This document shows, piece after piece, positions 50,161-60,030 of a stretch of 64,000 bases of DNA. The DNA comes from Bryobacterales bacterium (lineage in GTDB: Bacteria > Acidobacteriota > Terriglobia > Bryobacterales > UBA6623): NCBI GenBank assembly GCA_022824585.1, contig JAJDZN010000081.1, forward strand, positions 1 through 64,000, read 5' to 3'. The position numbers were made by a program, and so were the translations under genes. Position 1 is the first letter of the stretch, and each line of letters opens with the position of its first letter. The notes below the pieces were generated by a model. The model searched no databases and was not told the DNA's origin. It was given only the letters and a program-made list of their open reading frames with translations.

Positions 50161-50694
50161 CTACGGCTTAAGGAGCCCGGCCCCGATCAGGTACTGCCAG
50201 ACGATCTCGGTCGATTCCTCCGCCGTCTGCTGGCTCGAATCAACGCGAACCTCCGGAGACTCCGGCGGTTCGTAGGGATCGGAGACACCCGTGAAATTCT
50301 TGATCTCGCCCGCGAGCGCCTTCTTGTAGAGGCCCTTGGCGTCGCGCTCTACGAGCGTGTCGAGGGGACAGTCGGCGAAGACTTCCACGAAATCGCCGGC
50401 CGCGGCCCTGACCTCGTCGCGAACCGCCCTGTAAGGGGAAATGGCCGCCGCGATCGCGAAGACACCGTTGCGCGACAGCAGGTTGCACACGAATCCGATG
50501 CGCCGGATGTTGGTGTCGCGGTCTTCCTTGCTGAAACCCAGGCCCTTAGAGAGATTCGTCCGGACCACATCGCCGTCCAAGATCTCCACCCGGGCGCCGA
50601 CGGCGCGCAGGCGCTTGGCCAGCATATTCGCGACGGTCGACTTGCCCGAACCGGACAAGCCGGTCATCCAAATGGTTGCCCCTTTATACTCCAT
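50161..50694 (-). CDS. cysC: Adenylyl-sulfate kinase
   Basis: The 177-residue protein has the P-loop GLSGSGKS at residues 12-19, [51 protein letters not shown] and [17 protein letters not shown]. It phosphorylates APS to PAPS. It is the last gene of sat-cysH-cysC, 31 nt after cysH, but TATGAT 5 nt upstream of its ATG suggests an extra internal promoter. The adjacent reductase appears to use APS directly, so PAPS made here may serve sulfation or another route. Confidence 0.95.
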
Positions 50695-50725: not shown

Positions 50726-51511
50726 TTACTTGACGGCAAACGGCCTGCGGGCCGGCAGAACCTCATCCAGCAGCACGTCCACCTCCCGCCGCATTTGGCC
50801 GCGCATGCCTAAGTGCATTCCGCACTCCTTGTCGACGTCTGTCTCCCACCACCAACGCCCCGCCCGGGAATCTTCGCCAGCCTCGACCTTGCGGGTGCAG
50901 GGCTGGCATCCGATGCTCGGGTAGCCTTGGGCGTACAGCGGGTGCAGCGGCACGTCGTGCTCCCGCGCGTAGGCGAAGACCTCCTCGTTCGACCAACCGG
51001 CCAAGGGGGCAAGCTTCACGATTCCGCCGTGCTCTTCGTCAATCGCCACCGGTTCGGTTCGCTCGCGGCCGCCGTCCTGGTCACGCCGCAGTCCCGTGAC
51101 CCAGGCATCGAGCGTCGCCAAGCGGCGCTGTAACGGCCTCACCTTGCGGATCTCGCAGCACAGCTTGCGCTTGGCGGGGCTCTCGTAGAAGAGGTTCGGC
51201 CCGTTCAGCGTCAGCATCGAGCCCAGCTCGTCGGCATCCGGCGGAACCAACTCGATCACGATCCCGTAGCGACGGCGGATCTGCGAGATCAGTTGGTAGG
51301 TCTCCTCGTGCAAGCGGCCGGTGTCGATGCTGAAGACGTTGACATCTCCGCCGACCAAGCGCGCCGCCATGTCGAGGATCACCGACCCGGAGGCTTGGAA
51401 GCTGGTGCAGATCGCCAGTCCCGAGCCGAACTCGTCGATCGCCCAACCCAAAGTCTCCTGGGCGGTGGCGTCGCTCCGCGGCCACGTGAATTTCGGCAGC
51501 GGCAGTGTCAC
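50726..51511 (-). CDS. cysH: Adenylyl-sulfate (APS) reductase, assimilatory, Fe-S type
   Basis: The 261-residue PAPS/APS reductase family protein has AICTSFQASGSVILDMAARL, VFSIDTGRLHEETYQ, the Cys118-Cys119 pair (KLCCEIRK), the Cys202-x-x-Cys205 pair (GCQPCTRKV) and the catalytic Cys230 in ECGMH. The CC...CxxC set binds a [4Fe-4S] cluster and marks APS-specific reductases, unlike E. coli CysH, which lacks it. It reduces APS to sulfite and AMP using thioredoxin. The GTG start at 51511 overlaps the sat stop by 4 nt (GTGA). Confidence 0.93.
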   Translation of the reverse strand: MTLPLPKFTWPRSDATAQETLGWAIDEFGSGLAICTSFQASGSVILDMAARLVGGDVNVFSIDTGRLHEETYQLISQIRRRYGIVIELVPPDADELGSMLTLNGPNLFYESPAKRKLCCEIRKVRPLQRRLATLDAWVTGLRRDQDGGRERTEPVAIDEEHGGIVKLAPLAGWSNEEVFAYAREHDVPLHPLYAQGYPSIGCQPCTRKVEAGEDSRAGRWWWETDVDKECGMHLGMRGQMRREVDVLLDEVLPARRPFAVK

Positions 51512-52620
51512 GCAGCTTCTCGCGCCGCGGCGATCAAGATCTCAGCGATCTCGGGGCGGGTGAACTCGCTCGGCGGCAGCTTGCCCTCGCGCAACATCTG
51601 GCGGACCGCGCGGCCGGCGAGATGCACGTGATGCTCCGGCGGGTGCGGGCAGGTCTTCTTCGAAGCCATGCCTCCGCAGACCCTGCAGTAGTGGACGAAA
51701 TCGAAGAAGACCGGCTCAACGCCGAGTTCGCCGGGCTGGAAGTCGGAAAAGATCCTCTGGGCGTCGAACGGGCCGTAGTAGTCGCCCACGCCGGCGTGGT
51801 CCCGCCCGACGATGAAGTGGGTGATGCCATAGTTCTTGCGCACCTGCGCGTGAAAAATCGCCTCGCGTGGGCCGGCGTAGCGCATCCACGCCGGAAAACC
51901 GGCCAGCATCGCGTGGTCGGCCGGGTAGTAGTTGCGCATCAGCACGTCGTAGCAGGCCAAGCGCACCTCGGCGGGCGTATCGTCAGCCTTTGTCTCGCCC
52001 AAGAGGGGGTGGATCACCAGCCCGTCGGCGGTCTCAAGGGCAATCTTGGTGCAAAACTCGTGCGCCCGGTGGATCGGATTGCGCGTCTGGAATCCCACCA
52101 CCGTCCGCCAGCCCTTCGCCCGCACCAGAGCCGCCGTCTCGCGCGGCGAGATCGGAAGCGAGCCGGGAACGTCGAGCTTCCAGTCCGAGCAGACTTCAGC
52201 CGTAGCCGCAATCGAATACTCCCCTGCCTCGCGCAGCCACTGGACGCCGGGATGCGCCTCGTCCTGCGTGCGGAAGATGCTCTCGGCATAAAGTTCCTTC
52301 TCGATCGGAAAGATCTCTTCGACGTGCAGCAGGCCCGCCGGGGCGTCCCCATCCATCAGGACCAAGCGCTCCTCTCCGAGAATGCGCTCCTTGGTGGCGG
52401 AATCGATCGGGAACACGATCGGAATGCTCCACGGCTCCCCGGTGGTGAGGTGCATGGTGCGGCAGACCGAGCGGGTCTGGACACTGTTCAAGAATCCCTG
52501 GATCGGCTCGTATCCGCCTTCGGCCAGCAGATACAGGTCGCTCAGCTGCCGAAACGTCGCGGCAAGGCCCGGCACGCCGGAGGAAACCAGCGCATTGAGG
52601 TCCGAGGAAGGAATAGACAT
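51508..52620 (-). CDS. sat: Sulfate adenylyltransferase
   Basis: The 370-residue ATP sulfurylase of the homo-oligomeric (Sat/Met3) type has the FQTRNPIHRAHE nucleotide-binding motif, VIHPLLGETKADD, HAMLAGFPAWMRYAGPREAI, HFIVGRDHAGVGDYYGPFDA and a late Cys-rich CRVCGGMASKKTCPH zinc site. It makes APS from sulfate and ATP. The ATG at 52620 has GGAAG next to it, and a TATAGT ends 7 nt upstream. It is the first gene of sat-cysH-cysC. A perfect inverted repeat at 52654-52677 lies just upstream of the promoter. No sulfite reductase or sulfate transporter gene is in the window. Confidence 0.95.
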   Translation of the reverse strand: MSIPSSDLNALVSSGVPGLAATFRQLSDLYLLAEGGYEPIQGFLNSVQTRSVCRTMHLTTGEPWSIPIVFPIDSATKERILGEERLVLMDGDAPAGLLHVEEIFPIEKELYAESIFRTQDEAHPGVQWLREAGEYSIAATAEVCSDWKLDVPGSLPISPRETAALVRAKGWRTVVGFQTRNPIHRAHEFCTKIALETADGLVIHPLLGETKADDTPAEVRLACYDVLMRNYYPADHAMLAGFPAWMRYAGPREAIFHAQVRKNYGITHFIVGRDHAGVGDYYGPFDAQRIFSDFQPGELGVEPVFFDFVHYCRVCGGMASKKTCPHPPEHHVHLAGRAVRQMLREGKLPPSEFTRPEIAEILIAAAREAA

Positions 52621-52627
52621 TTCTTCC

Positions 52628-52633
52628 ACTATA
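52628..52633 (-). promoter_or_regulatory. -10-like TATAGT of the sat operon
   Basis: Minus-strand TATAGT is separated from the sat ATG by 7 nt (GGAAGAA). That spacer could act as a Shine-Dalgarno or be the leaderless spacing. Confidence 0.5.
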
Positions 52634-52653
52634 CACGGCTCCACAGCTATATT

Positions 52654-52677
52654 CTACTATTCCTATCGACATAGTAG
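52654..52677. promoter_or_regulatory. Perfect palindrome, candidate operator of the sulfate-activation operon
   Basis: CTACTAT-N10-ATAGTAG is a perfect 7-bp inverted repeat whose near edge is 20 nt upstream of the sat -10. It overlaps the region where a -35 element would lie. The position suits a repressor or activator of sulfur assimilation. On the minus strand it includes GATAGGAATAGTAG, faintly like boxes bound by Rrf2-type sulfur regulators. The regulator is not in the window. Confidence 0.5.
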
Positions 52678-52756
52678 GGATTAACGGATGAGCACGGTAC
52701 GGGAGGGGCTGGATCGAGCCACCTGTGCAGGTCCGAGGTTCTGGCCGGGCCAGCAA

Positions 52757-53662: not shown

Positions 53663-54056
53663 TCAGTCCACCAGTCTCAGGCCTCTCAGCGCGGCTTCGG
53701 AGGCGCCGCTGATCGTCAGCGGGGCGACTTCCTCCCGGCCCGCGCTCATGTCGTGGAGCCGTCCGCAGTTGTGCAGTTGCCATCGTTGCGCGCGCACCCA
53801 GCGCGCCGAATTGCCCGCCGCAAAGGCCAACGGGCGCGGTGAAGCGGCGCCGCCCTGCACGCGATCGGCCAAGCTGACGCCTTACAGCCCGCCAAGTCGA
53901 CGAGAGGCGGAAGCCACTCGGTGAAGTCGAACGAGTGGTCAACGACCTGCCCCGGCACGAGCTTTCCCGGCCAGTGCACGACTAGCGGCACTCGGGTGCC
54001 GCCATCGGTAAGTTCACCCTTGCCTGACCCCATCCTTTCCGCTTCCACACCAATTG
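53663..54056 (-). pseudogene. Truncated, frameshifted sulfatase 3' end
   Basis: About 390 nt on the minus strand closely resemble the C-terminal third of the sulfatase at 59565-60845. Identical runs of roughly 25-30 nt occur, for example around 53709-53737 and 53787-53816. The upstream part encodes GKGELTDGGTRVPLVVHWPG and VVDHSFDFTEWLPPLVDLAG. Near 53878 a deletion shifts the frame, and the last part reads DRVQGGAASPRPLAFAAGNS through HDMSAGREEVAPLTISGASE. The formylglycine site and the N-terminal two-thirds are absent. It cannot encode an active enzyme. With the intact copy it brackets the large helicase gene in direct orientation. Confidence 0.85.
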
Positions 54057-54381: not shown

Positions 54382-57300
54382 ATGGATCCGATCTCACCGC
54401 CACGTTGCCTCTCGCTGGACCTTGAAGTGGGCAAGGACGGCGGCCACATTCGGGCACTGGCTGCCGTGCGCCCGGATACAGGCCGCACGCTGGTGCATTC
54501 CGGCCGCGGCATGGCGAATGCGCTTGCGAGGCTGGACGATGTCGCCAACGGCGCGTCGTTCGTTCTTGGTCACAACTTGATCGCGTTCGACCTGCCGATC
54601 CTAAAGGCGGCGAAGCCGGACCTGAGGCTACTGAAGTTGCCCGCCGTGGATACCCTGCGGCTCAACCCACTGGCGTTCCCCCGAAACCCGTACCATGGCC
54701 TCGTCAAGCACTACCAAGACGGCGGGTTCAAGCGCGGGCGGGTGAACGACCCGGAAATGGATGCCCGCCTCGCGCTGAGACTATTCGGTGACCAACACAA
54801 GGGTCTTGGTTCGGCTTCGCCGGATTTGCTCGCCGCATGGCACTGGCTATGCACGCCCGAGCCTGCGGGCGTGGACCGTGCGCTCAACGATTTCTTTTCC
54901 CAAGTCCGCAAAGCTCGCCGGCCGGCACAAGTCGAAGCCAAGGTGGCAATCCAACGTATGTTCCGAGACACCACCTGCACGCTCTACGGGCGAGAGGTCG
55001 TGGCGAACGCGGGCAGGTTCGGCTGGGCACTGGCATACGCTCTGGCATGGCTGTCGGTGGCCGGCGGCAATTCGGTGATGCCACCGTGGGTGGGGCATCA
55101 GTTTCCGGACGCCGGACGGTTGGTGCGGCGGCTCAGAGATTCGGCTTGTACCGATCCGGCATGTGGCTGGTGCCGGGAGCACCATGACGCTCGCAAGGAA
55201 CTCAACCGCTGGTTTGGCTTCGACGGCTTTCGTCCCGAACCAGCCGACGCCACGGGACATCCGCTACAGCAGGCCATAGTCGAGGAAGCGATGGCGGGCA
55301 ATCCCGTGCTTGGCATCTTGCCAACGGGCACCGGCAAGTCGCTCTGCTATCAAATCCCAGCGCTGTCGCGATATGACAAGACTGGCGCACTGACTGTGGT
55401 GATCTCCCCCCTGGTCGCGCTAATGGCCGATCAAGTGGCCGGGCTGGAAGAGCGTGGTATCGGCTGCTGCGCGACGATCAACGGGCTGCTGTCAATGCCC
55501 GAGCGCGCCGCAGCGCTCGACCGAGTCCGATTGGGAGATGTCGGCATCCTCCTGATTTCGCCAGAGCAGTTGCGCTCGCGCACCGTGCGGCGGGTGCTCG
55601 ACCAGCGCGAGATCGGTGCCTGGGTGCTTGATGAAGCGCATTGCTTGTCGCGCTGGGGGCATGAATTCCGGCCCGACTACAGATACGTGGGCCGCTTCAT
55701 ACGCGAGAAGGCGGGCGACGGGCCTGTGCCTCAGGCCCTGTGCCTGACCGCAACCGCCAAACCCGATGTGATCGACGACATAGCCCGGCATTTTCGCGAA
55801 GAACTCGACATCGAGTTGCGAGTGTTCGATGGCGGGACGGAGCGCGCCAACCTAACATTCGCAGTGGTCCCGACCACCGGAGGCGAGAAGTTTACCCACA
55901 TCCATCAGATCCTGATGTCCGACCTGCCGCCCGAGATGCCGGGAGGAGCCATCGTCTATTGCGCGACGCGTCAGCAAACCGAGGATGTCGCCGAATTCCT
56001 GCAAGCGAAACAGGTTGCCGCAGATCGATTCCACGCGGGCCTGCCGCCGGAAACGAAGAAGGAAGTCCAGCGGCGCTTCATCGGTGGCGAACTGCGTGCG
56101 ATTGCTGCCACCAACGCCTTCGGCATGGGGATCGACAAGCCAGACGTACGACTGGTAATCCACGCCGACATTCCGGGCTCGTTGGAGAACTATCTGCAGG
56201 AGGCGGGGCGCGCAGGCCGAGACCGTGCGGCGGCGCGTTGCGTGCTGCTATATGCGACGGACGATGTCGAGCGCCAGTTCGGGATGTCGGCACGATCTCG
56301 CCTGAGCCGAGAGGAGATCCACGGCATCCTGCGGGCACTGAGGAATCTCGACCGCAAAAAACGCTTTCGTGGTGACGTGGTTGCCACTGCGGGCGAAATC
56401 CTTGGCGAAGACGAGGACAAGGCGTTCGAGCGGGACTCGGCAACCGACGACACCAGGGTCCGGACCGCCGTTGCCTGGCTCGAAGAGTCAGAACTCTTGA
56501 CCCGCGAAGAGAACATCGTTCAGGTGTTTCCGTCGTCACTCCGCGTAGATTCAGTTGAGGAGGCCGAGCAGCGGCTGAGGAAGGCTGACATAACGACTGG
56601 ATATCGCGAGCAATTATTGAAAATCGCCGAAGCGCTGATCGAGGCGGATTGCGACGAAGGGGTTAGCACGGACGAACTGATGGGCGTCTCGGGATTGAGT
56701 CCCGAACGCGTGTGCGGGGCGTTGCACGACTTAGAAGGCTTCGGCATCGCCAGCAACGACACGGCGCTGACCGCGTTCGTCCACACCGGCGTAGAGCGCT
56801 CTTCCCGCAAGCGGCTTGAGGAGGCGGATTCATTGGAGACCGCGCTGATCGCGCACATGCGCGAGGCAGCGCCGGATCTGGGAAAGGGCGACACATCCCC
56901 AATTCACTTCCGGATTGCATCCCAAGTGCTACGGGATCAGGGCTTAGCCGACCCGCTGCCGGAGCGTCTCTGGCGCATCGTCCGTAGCATCTCCTACGAC
57001 GGACGTGGCGGGGACGATCAAGTCGTGGGTAGCCTCGCCGTGCGAAAGCGCGATGCCGAGACTGCGCTGATCACATTGAACCGCGAGTGGGACCCGCTGG
57101 AGACTACATCTCAACTCCGGCGAGAGGCCGCCGGACGCTTGCTGGACCACTTGCTAGGCTGCCTAGCGCGGGGCAGCCGAGGCACCGATCTGCTGGCTGA
57201 GACCACCGTCGGGCAACTGTTGCAAGCGATCAAGTCTTCCTTGCACCTGAAAGGCAGAGTCCGGCACCCCGCCAAGCTGTTGGACCGGGCCTTGCTCTGG

Positions 57301-59493
57301 CTCCACGAGCAGGAAGTGCTCCGTCTCAACAAGGGCCTAGCAGTGTTTCGTCCGGCGATGAAGATCCGGCTGGAGCACAGGGACCGTCGCGGTTTTTCGC
57401 GTACTGAATTCAAGCCCCTAGCGCTTCACTACAAGGGACAGGTGCTGCAGATCCACGTGATGGTTGCGTTCGCAGAGCACGGCCTTGCTTCTGTGCGCGA
57501 GGCACTGCGCCTAGCGATGGACTATTTCTCGCTCAAGGAGGTGGATTTTCTCGCTCGCTGGCTGCCCGGTCGAGACAAGGAGATCGGCCGCCAGACAACA
57601 CCCGAGTCGTGGCGCGCAATCGTTGAGAGCCTAAAGAACCCTATCCAGCAGCGCATCGTGTCTGACGAGCGGGATCAGACCAATGTACTGGTGCTAGCTG
57701 GCCCTGGTTCCGGGAAAACGCGTGTCTTGGTGCATCGCATCGCCTGGCTGATACGCGTCAGCCGGGAGAACCCTCGGGGAATCCTTGCCCTTGCCTACAA
57801 CCGTCACGCGGCCGTCGATATCAGGCGTCGGCTGGCGGATCTGATCGGCGATGACGCCCGGGGCGTGACTGTGCTCACGTTGCACGCTCTCGCTATGCGC
57901 CTAACGGGTGCCAGCTTCGCGAGCCAAGTGGAGCGCCCGGACGACGAAACGTTCAGGGATGTCTTGCAGCGTGCGATCGCTTTGCTGCGCGGCCAGGGCC
58001 TGCCGCCGGAAGAGGCAGACGAGCGCCGCGAACGCTTGCTGGCGGGCTTCCGCTGGATTCTGGTGGACGAATACCAAGACATAGGGCGCGAGCAGTACGA
58101 ACTCATTTCGGCCTTGGCTGGGAGAACGCTAAGTGGCGATGCGGGCAAGCTCACTGTGTTCGCGGTCGGCGACGACGATCAGAACATCTACTCCTTCAAC
58201 GGTGCTTCGGTAGAGTTCATCCGGCGTTTCAAGTCGGACTACGGGCCACAGCCCACTTGGCTGACCGACAACTACCGATCGACAGCCAACATCGTGGCGG
58301 CAGCGAACGCGATGATCGCACCTGCATCGAACCGTATGAAGGCTGCGCATCCCATCCGTGTGAATCGGGCTCGTGCGAAGGATTCGCCGGGCGGAGAGTG
58401 GGCAGAGCTTGATCCGGTTTCGCAGGGACGAGTGCAGCTACTTCCAGCAGGCGGCGATCCGGTCCATCAGGCGCGGGCAGTCATGGCGGAGCTTCTTCGC
58501 CTCTCCAAACTTCTCCAGGATTGGGATTGGGCGCGTTGCGCGGTGATCGCACGAGAGTGGGAATTCCTAGTTCCGGTACGGGCGTTCTGCGAAGCGCACG
58601 ACATTCCAGTGCAGATGGCGAACGAGGAAATCCCTAACTTCTGGCGCCTGCGGGAAACCCGTGCCTTTGTTGAATGGCTGCGCGGACTGAAGCCGAGGAT
58701 TGCCGATGATGCCGTCTTACGCGGCTGGATAGACGCACGCCCATCCGATCGGTGGCACGACCTGCTGCGACAGGCGATAGCGGAACATTCGCTGGAAACC
58801 GGTGGCGGGGAGACACCCGTAGCCAACGTTGCCGAATGGCTGGCGGAGTGGGGCCGGGATGTACGCCGTCGCCAGCATGGCCTGCTGGTACTCACCGCCC
58901 ACCGAGCCAAGGGGCTCGAATTCGATCACGTGGCGGTGCTCGATGGCGGCTGGAATCGAGTCGGGCGCAACGAAGATGCCGACGCGCCCCGCAGGCTGTA
59001 CTACGTAGCCATGACGCGCGCGCGGAAGACGCTCACGCTCGCACACTTGAACGGATCGTTGGCTCTGCAGAACGTCTTGCAGGGGCATACTGCGACAATA
59101 CGGCGCAAAGCGGCAGAGCTAGCTCCGTGTCCGGAAGCGGTCAAGTATCGCCATGTCCGAGTGACCCTTAAAGACGTCGACGTCGGCCTTGCCGGACGCC
59201 GGCGTGTAGACGATCCGATACACGCCGCCATCGCCGGGTTGTCGACTGGCGCTCCATTGAAGGTACGGAGCCGAGGTAGCGAACGGTGGGAATTGCGGGA
59301 CCGCACGGGCCGACTTGTCGGACGTCTGGCCAAATCGTTCGAACCGCCGCCCAGAATGCGGTGTCTTTCGGCCGAAGTGTTCGCCATAGTCGGTTGGAGC
59401 CGCGAAGCGTCGGAGGCGCAGTATCACGAATCCATCAAATGCACCGACTGGGAAGTGGTCGTACCCGAGTTCGTGTTCGAGCCGGACGAATGA
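54382..59493 (+). CDS. Fused exonuclease-like / RecQ helicase / UvrD helicase protein
   Basis: This is a 1703-residue single chain. Residues 8-130 resemble a DEDD-type 3'-5' exonuclease: DLE (13-15), GHNLIAFD (63-70), AVDTL (88-92) and a later Asp (127). A Cys cluster C256-x4-C261-x2-C264 follows. Residues about 290-650 are a RecQ-type SF2 helicase: Walker A LPTGTGKS (313-320), LDEAH (416-420), LTATA (455-459), QEAGRAGRD (606-614). Residues about 640-1090 hold RQC/HRDC-like or linker helices that I cannot assign. Residues 1100-1560 are a UvrD/Rep SF1 helicase: AGPGSGKT (1106-1113), VDEYQD (1228-1233), GDDDQNIYSF (1263-1272), TAHRAKGLEF (1505-1514) and AMTRAR (1543-1548). All motifs look intact. 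It probably unwinds and trims DNA in repair or defence. Confidence 0.88.
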   Translation: MDPISPPRCLSLDLEVGKDGGHIRALAAVRPDTGRTLVHSGRGMANALARLDDVANGASFVLGHNLIAFDLPILKAAKPDLRLLKLPAVDTLRLNPLAFPRNPYHGLVKHYQDGGFKRGRVNDPEMDARLALRLFGDQHKGLGSASPDLLAAWHWLCTPEPAGVDRALNDFFSQVRKARRPAQVEAKVAIQRMFRDTTCTLYGREVVANAGRFGWALAYALAWLSVAGGNSVMPPWVGHQFPDAGRLVRRLRDSACTDPACGWCREHHDARKELNRWFGFDGFRPEPADATGHPLQQAIVEEAMAGNPVLGILPTGTGKSLCYQIPALSRYDKTGALTVVISPLVALMADQVAGLEERGIGCCATINGLLSMPERAAALDRVRLGDVGILLISPEQLRSRTVRRVLDQREIGAWVLDEAHCLSRWGHEFRPDYRYVGRFIREKAGDGPVPQALCLTATAKPDVIDDIARHFREELDIELRVFDGGTERANLTFAVVPTTGGEKFTHIHQILMSDLPPEMPGGAIVYCATRQQTEDVAEFLQAKQVAADRFHAGLPPETKKEVQRRFIGGELRAIAATNAFGMGIDKPDVRLVIHADIPGSLENYLQEAGRAGRDRAAARCVLLYATDDVERQFGMSARSRLSREEIHGILRALRNLDRKKRFRGDVVATAGEILGEDEDKAFERDSATDDTRVRTAVAWLEESELLTREENIVQVFPSSLRVDSVEEAEQRLRKADITTGYREQLLKIAEALIEADCDEGVSTDELMGVSGLSPERVCGALHDLEGFGIASNDTALTAFVHTGVERSSRKRLEEADSLETALIAHMREAAPDLGKGDTSPIHFRIASQVLRDQGLADPLPERLWRIVRSISYDGRGGDDQVVGSLAVRKRDAETALITLNREWDPLETTSQLRREAAGRLLDHLLGCLARGSRGTDLLAETTVGQLLQAIKSSLHLKGRVRHPAKLLDRALLWLHEQEVLRLNKGLAVFRPAMKIRLEHRDRRGFSRTEFKPLALHYKGQVLQIHVMVAFAEHGLASVREALRLAMDYFSLKEVDFLARWLPGRDKEIGRQTTPESWRAIVESLKNPIQQRIVSDERDQTNVLVLAGPGSGKTRVLVHRIAWLIRVSRENPRGILALAYNRHAAVDIRRRLADLIGDDARGVTVLTLHALAMRLTGASFASQVERPDDETFRDVLQRAIALLRGQGLPPEEADERRERLLAGFRWILVDEYQDIGREQYELISALAGRTLSGDAGKLTVFAVGDDDQNIYSFNGASVEFIRRFKSDYGPQPTWLTDNYRSTANIVAAANAMIAPASNRMKAAHPIRVNRARAKDSPGGEWAELDPVSQGRVQLLPAGGDPVHQARAVMAELLRLSKLLQDWDWARCAVIAREWEFLVPVRAFCEAHDIPVQMANEEIPNFWRLRETRAFVEWLRGLKPRIADDAVLRGWIDARPSDRWHDLLRQAIAEHSLETGGGETPVANVAEWLAEWGRDVRRRQHGLLVLTAHRAKGLEFDHVAVLDGGWNRVGRNEDADAPRRLYYVAMTRARKTLTLAHLNGSLALQNVLQGHTATIRRKAAELAPCPEAVKYRHVRVTLKDVDVGLAGRRRVDDPIHAAIAGLSTGAPLKVRSRGSERWELRDRTGRLVGRLAKSFEPPPRMRCLSAEVFAIVGWSREASEAQYHESIKCTDWEVVVPEFVFEPDE

Positions 59494-59564: not shown

Positions 59565-60030
59565 TCATTCGGGCGGCACCAATCCCCGGAGCGCGGCCTC
59601 AAGCTCAGCCCTCGCTCGCAGCGCTTCCTCGGAGGCGGCGCTGATCGTCAGCGGGGCGACTTCCTCCCTGTCCGCGCTCATGTCGTAGAGCCGTCCGTCG
59701 TCGTACAGTTTCCATCGCTGCGTGCGCACCCAGCGCGCCGAATTGCCCGCCGCGAAGGCCCACGGGCGCGGTGAAGCGGCGCCGCCACGCAGGCGATCAG
59801 CCAAGCTGACCCCGTCCAGCCCGGCCGGCACCGTCCCGCCTGCCAAGTCGACAAACGTCGGAAACCAGTCGCTGAAGTCCACCAAGTCGTCAACGACCTG
59901 CCCTGGCGCGAGCTTTCCGGGCCAGCTCGCGACTAGCGGTACCCGGGTGCCCCCGTCCGTGAGCTCGCCCTTGCCACCCTTGACCCGCTGCCCGTTCCAG
60001 ACCAGTTCAATGGGCTGCTTGAACATCTTC
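59565..60030 (-). repeat. Intact member of the direct repeat flanking the helicase block
   Basis: The 3' third of the intact sulfatase gene matches the fragment at 53663-54056 in the same orientation. Differences include a 30-nt deletion near the stop codon and a deletion near 53878 in the fragment. The two copies enclose 54057-59564. Confidence 0.75.

Follow-up and report, generated by a model that had tools for sequence, protein, structure and literature searches.

In Bacillus subtilis and Staphylococcus aureus the cysteine genes are repressed by CymR, a small protein of the Rrf2 family without Fe-S cluster which, according to the papers on it, acts complexed with CysK, requires cysteine for this joint binding to DNA and is then more stable on the DNA (PMC9338935, PMC2940859, PMC3828012, PMC4961446). 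A CymR-like gene lies beside cysK in Clostridium acetobutylicum (CAC2236-CAC2235), as stated in one of them (PMC3828012). CysK is also the partner of CysE in the cysteine synthase complex, where most of the binding energy comes from the C-terminal Ile of CysE; the same paper mentions Ile-containing motifs in other CysK partners, CymR included (PMC12895370). The regulator described here resembles CymR in its size, in the lack of an Fe-S cluster and in its predicted fold, for which CymR was the best match; unlike CymR, it comes from Acidobacteriota, it ends in a NW(E/D/Q)I tail and cysK is co-encoded nearly everywhere in the order. Its CysK keeps the residues that bind the CysE tail, whereas the tail itself, unlike that of CysE, is carried by a DNA-binding protein and its docking is putative. 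IscR of Escherichia coli and Thermincola potens belongs to the same Rrf2 family, and the operator described here is broadly similar in type to the type 2 sites of IscR; the regulator differs from IscR by the absence of the cluster cysteines and by its target genes. No such system was found for the Bryobacterales group in the open-access papers that were searched.

The window, that is, the whole stretch of 64,000 nucleotides that was analysed, carries, in this order, the sulfate assimilation genes sat, cysH and cysC, whose identity, as proposed in an earlier note on this DNA, was confirmed by family models. The segment upstream of sat at 52658-52682 very probably serves as operator for a CymR-like repressor of the Rrf2 family whose gene lies elsewhere in the genome, with CysK as the probable sensor. 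The features of the region are the following:

50161..50694, minus strand, cysC, APS kinase (family model)
50726..51511, minus strand, cysH, APS/PAPS reductase (family model)
51508..52620, minus strand, sat, ATP sulfurylase (family model)
52628..52633, minus strand, TATAGT, putative -10-like hexamer, 7 nt ahead of the start codon of sat
52651..52656, minus strand, TAGAAT, putative -10-like hexamer directly behind the operator, or -35 of the next promoter
52654..52677, no strand assigned, palindrome CTACTAT-N10-ATAGTAG of the earlier note, which overlaps the operator in a different register and lacks conservation in its right arm
52658..52682, minus strand, conserved operator AATCCCTA-CTATGTCGA-TAGGAATA, 25 bp, half-sites AATCYCTA / TAGRGATT

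The earlier note had drawn a perfect palindrome as the site of a dimeric regulator at the sat promoter. The palindrome (CTACTATTCCTATCGACATAGTAG) is present exactly as claimed, upstream of sat, whose ATG (52620, minus strand) is 34 nt away. A 7-bp inverted repeat as such is ordinary in the window and nothing special: there are 134 perfect ones with spacers of 3-20 bp, and five first-order Markov resamplings of the window gave 105-142. The spacer is of 10 bp in 8 of these 134 repeats, and only one of them has arms with at least five A/T. When the palindrome was footprinted upstream of sat in relatives, its arms were perfect in only 2 of 14 promoters (G000, the genome of the window, and G003), matched at 6/7 positions in four and at 1-5/7 in eight. 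The search of the own genome, in turn, returned one exact copy plus one site at 2 mismatches, without clear recurrence, whereas the reversed pattern used as control gave more, 9 per strand. The palindrome as drawn was therefore rejected as the functional site, its right arm being a local accident of two species. What stood of the proposal was the place: a conserved site overlaps the palindrome, so that the earlier drawing was in the right place but in the wrong register, by about 5 bp.

This overlapping site is read on the minus strand as AATCCCTA-N9-TAGGAATA, and the conserved dyad is AATCYCTA-N9-TAGRGATT, with half-sites of 8 bp. Of all the 25-mers contained in the 210 nt that surround the start of sat, 52658-52682 ranked first in conservation, with 157/200 matches to 8 distant relatives (25-mer mean 107.6, sd 12.1). 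The model match reported at 52659-52683 corresponds to the operator plus one extra 5' model base. In the window the two arms pair at only 6 of 8 positions. sat was obtained from 17 of the 18 genomes of the family, and the block AATCYCTAnTAnnYCGATAG (up to 2 mismatches) was located upstream of sat in 14 of these 17. The remaining three genomes (g4) have a sat that is only 34-36% identical and is preceded by cysH; there the block is located before this upstream cysH instead of before sat.

The region upstream of sat in G004 and G007 (L012 and L013) has an additional half-site, AAGGGATT or TAGGGATT. It lies 9 bp beyond the right half of the operator, a distance close to one turn of the helix, which would let two dimers overlap there.

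Two readings of the sat promoter were considered in the window. In one of them TAGAAT, located approximately where G008, G009 and G010 have TATAAT, would be the -10 and the operator would cover the -35. In the other, TATAGT would be the -10, the mRNA would be leaderless and the operator would lie at about -37 to -61; the distance from TAGAAT to TATAGT is 17 nt, and TATAGT does not vary among the six closest genomes (G000-G003, G005, G006). A consensus scan for promoters and terminators at sat found none. The leaderless transcript suggested by the earlier note fits the position of TATAGT, 7 nt before the ATG, and control at transcription initiation, also suggested there, is probable. An RNA leader element was set aside because the operator is upstream of both candidate -10 hexamers.

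In the same part of the window we noted a gene for a 1703-aa fusion of a RecQ-like and a UvrD-like helicase (with DpdF and GajB-like matches), around 54382-59493. On its two sides, at 53683-54024 and 59615-59975, it has copies of the end of a sulfatase gene, one decayed and the other intact, which are similar over 209 nt at 89% and 170 nt at 76%. Since sulfatase, rmlD and sat are contiguous in G009, the helicase looks inserted between the sulfatase copies, possibly as a defence cassette.

A pattern drawn from the sat promoters only was run on the 18 genomes of the family. With 0-1 mismatch there were 25 matches, 13 of which were the sat sites themselves and are circular because the pattern was read from them. 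The other 12 were located in front of rrf2 (5), cysH (3), sulfite reductase (2) and, in the two remaining cases, unrelated genes. With up to 2 mismatches the matches rose to 43, against 14 for the reversed pattern. An Rrf2 ortholog is present in 17 of the 18 genomes, and in all 17 the operator AATCYCTA-N9-TAGRGATT (up to 2 differences) ends 2-5 nt before the rrf2 start codon, while none of the 17 shuffled upstream regions used as control had it. In the own genome the rrf2 operator is GAATCCCTA-N9-TAGGGATTC, with perfect arms of 9 bp (core at C171:4503-4527). The shifted site, then, is conserved upstream of sat in relatives and recurs near other sulfur and cysteine genes, as the earlier note had expected of its palindrome.

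With a model of 28 sites, only two distinct sites were detected in the own genome at E<=2, those of sat and rrf2-cysK. A position weight matrix (PWM) revealed a third and weaker one, before a cysO-moeZ-like gene on C330, with a score of 24.5; the second-best score in the whole window was 11.5. Since the same 28 sites served to train both the model (R1) and the PWM, their scores at those sites are circular. The moeZ site covers the -35 of TTGACA-N17-TAGCAT and is kept in 11/11 genomes of the genus of the window, and none was seen in the other 6 of the 17 genomes with a cysO-moeZ gene, a name given by eye from the sequence with no family search behind it. Operators were thus located at sat, cysH, the cysK operon, sulfite reductase and cysO-moeZ, the targets expected of a CymR-like regulator. 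The sulfite reductase (sir) sites of G014 and G016 were read by eye, and no operator site was found at the sulfite reductase of the genus of the window, G000 included. G009 keeps the sat and moeZ sites, and its rrf2-cysK locus was not detected; a hole in the assembly is likely, because the flanking genes were not detected either and only 532 nt of the 6.7-kb locus were recovered, at 65%.

Weak motif-like sites, for which we make no claim, were also observed before a sulfite-oxidase-like gene in G004 (R1 E 0.64) and G007 (E 0.50); others precede a VWA-like gene (G017) and a transporter gene (G009), both labelled by eye.

The gene of the regulator is on another contig of the own genome (C171:4532-4960), in agreement with the earlier note that it is not encoded nearby. 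It has its own operator in front and is followed by cysK, lipA and a gene read by eye as lnt. The protein (P0002) scored 105.7 bits on TIGR00738, above the cut-off of 73.3, and a 60% identical ortholog (P0001) scored 116.5 bits on PF02082 against a gathering score of 30. On the NCBIfam equivalog of CymR (NF047409) P0002 reached 95.0 bits, below the cut-off of 195 and in this different from CymR itself, and on that of IscR 69.2 bits, below 207.55. The structure model, taken from a 98.6% identical ortholog (pLDDT 85.5), had B. subtilis CymR (2y75) as its nearest Foldseek match, with an E-value of 1.4e-10 and a target TM of 0.87; T. potens IscR gave the same E-value (1.4e-10) with a target TM of 0.79 and was the best PDB match by sequence alone (4cic). 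Because the equivalog cut-off is missed and T. potens IscR comes first by sequence, we call the regulator CymR-like and not CymR. Its sole cysteine is residue 116, and the Fe-S cysteine trio is absent from the Bryobacterales rows of alignment A3, while Fe-S-type cysteines are present in the rows of Desulfotomaculum, Verrucomicrobiales and Patescibacteria. Neither the three cluster cysteines nor the isc/suf context that characterize IscR were found.

The relationship with CysK was assessed in 70 loci, 17 from the family and 53 from the order; the latter represent 53 of the 130 genomes that had a match outside the family, of which 33 were taken first, in rank order, and 20 were then picked at lower ranks, partly for complete contigs. 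In 68 of the 70 loci cysK comes directly after rrf2; one of the exceptions ends at a contig edge and in the other no cysK was found. All 69 complete Rrf2 orthologs have a C-terminal Ile, nearly always as NWEI, NWDI or NWQI, and among 13 Rrf2 paralogs there was no case of adjacent cysK and none of C-terminal Ile. In the own genome, CysK has retained TSGNT (72-76) and QFENP (146-150). For the P. aeruginosa enzyme, T71, S72, T75 and Q145 of CysK are reported as the positions that bind the CysE tail (PMC12895370). By analogy with the papers on CymR-CysK and CysE-CysK, we infer that the Rrf2 tail may dock into CysK.

Taking all this together, a dimer of the regulator would bind the AATCYCTA/TAGRGATT half-sites over the promoter and block RNA polymerase. 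It would control sat-cysH-cysC, its own rrf2-cysK(-lipA-lnt) operon and the cysO-moeZ gene and, in relatives, also cysH-sat and sulfite reductase. CysK from the same operon would be its probable sensor. At high levels of cysteine and low levels of O-acetylserine, the NW(E/D/Q)I tail would occupy the active site of CysK, as the CysE tail does, and the tail-bound complex would stay on the DNA; O-acetylserine would push the tail out of CysK and repression would be lifted. Several observations speak against this reading: the imperfect arms of the sat operator in the window, the rrf2-cysK locus missing from G009 in spite of its sites, the sulfite reductase of the genus of the window with no site, and the scarcity of the operator outside the family, where rrf2-cysK itself is present in nearly all genomes.

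The same regulator could act on the same site as an activator of sat while repressing its own gene, which we consider unlikely. Apo-IscR activates suf at type 2 sites and, if TATAGT is the -10, the position of the operator at sat, just upstream of the -35 in the six closest genomes, would suit an activator too; that -35, TAGAAT, is poor, and the consensus scan found no sigma-70 promoter there. Against it, the sat operator runs straight into TATAAT in G008, G009 and G010, the sat or cysH operator is on or behind a -10-like hexamer in G011, G012, G016 and g4, and the moeZ site is over a -35. Moreover, the rrf2 operator of G013 is just behind the -10 of TTGACG-N16-CATACT and the sulfite reductase operator of g4 is over the -10. 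Such variable offsets with respect to the -35, the -10 and the presumed start would suit a repressor, and it is because the offset changes between promoters that repression is favoured.

With regard to the signal, an Fe-S or redox signal of the IscR type in place of cysteine and O-acetylserine seems improbable. The first rank of T. potens IscR (4cic) among PDB sequences speaks for it, as does the described likeness of CymR and IscR motifs (PMC3828012); the regulator, on the other side, has no Fe-S cysteines, it scores higher on the CymR family than on that of IscR, and its targets are sulfate assimilation and cysK, not isc/suf. It is very improbable that CTACTAT-N10-ATAGTAG is the functional dyad, bound by a different regulator, or that it provides an accessory half-site at a distance of 9 bp: the perfect arms in G000 and G003, the 6/7 matches in four more genomes and the extra TAGGGATT-like half at about the same offset in G004 and G007 would fit, as opposed to the poor matches in the other eight genomes and the lack of clear recurrence in the own one. 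Repression by the CymR-like protein from the shifted site is the interpretation we retain, and a CymR-CysK-type cysteine regulon in Acidobacteriota (Bryobacterales) is the best reading of the locus: the operator is real and belongs to a regulator of known type, the lineage is new, and the palindrome has been corrected.

Among the 150 genomes of the order, the 25-bp model (E<=0.01) had matches in 18 from the family and in 2 of the 132 outside it, which makes 20 in total; of the two outside, the G120 site is beside cysH. An Rrf2 ortholog is present in 147 of the 150. A looser form of 24-25 bp was found outside the family in 18 of 53 rrf2 upstream regions versus 0/53 shuffled ones, and several of these operators overlap TATAAT. 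A scan of public genomes with the strict rrf2-type pattern matched 41 stretches. An Rrf2 gene is present in 19 of them, 13 acidobacterial and the others from Advenella, Desulfotomaculum, Verrucomicrobiales and Patescibacteria; three more (L134, L138, L148) have a sulfite reductase, cysN-like or cysH gene, and in the remaining 19 neither Rrf2 nor those sulfur genes were found in the parts checked.

The pattern precedes the cysN-like gene in L138 (Myxococcales) and is divergent from an assimilatory sulfite reductase gene in L134 (Acidimicrobiaceae). An identical site, AATCTCTACTATGTCAATAGAGATT, was seen in four verrucomicrobial records (L151, L155, L156 and L168), in three of them between a large gene and a DUF2061-like one (named by eye); the site of L155 is about 0.8 kb from an Rrf2 gene.

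For sulfate assimilation in Bryobacterales, a probable regulator can now be named together with its probable operator and regulon, and a vague palindrome has become a testable circuit. We lean towards the view that these bacteria use a CysE-mimicking Rrf2 repressor, whose Ile tail would plug the CysK of the same operon so that free O-acetylserine would directly set the transcription of sulfate assimilation; this would be a CymR-CysK sensor outside Firmicutes, conserved across an acidobacterial order. The conserved terminal-Ile tail may serve as a sequence signature for recognising CysK-sensing transcription factors in genomes, and the similar operators near Rrf2 or sulfur genes of Verrucomicrobiales, Myxococcales and Acidimicrobiaceae would mean that the AATCYCTA/TAGRGATT code is far more ancient than a single lineage.
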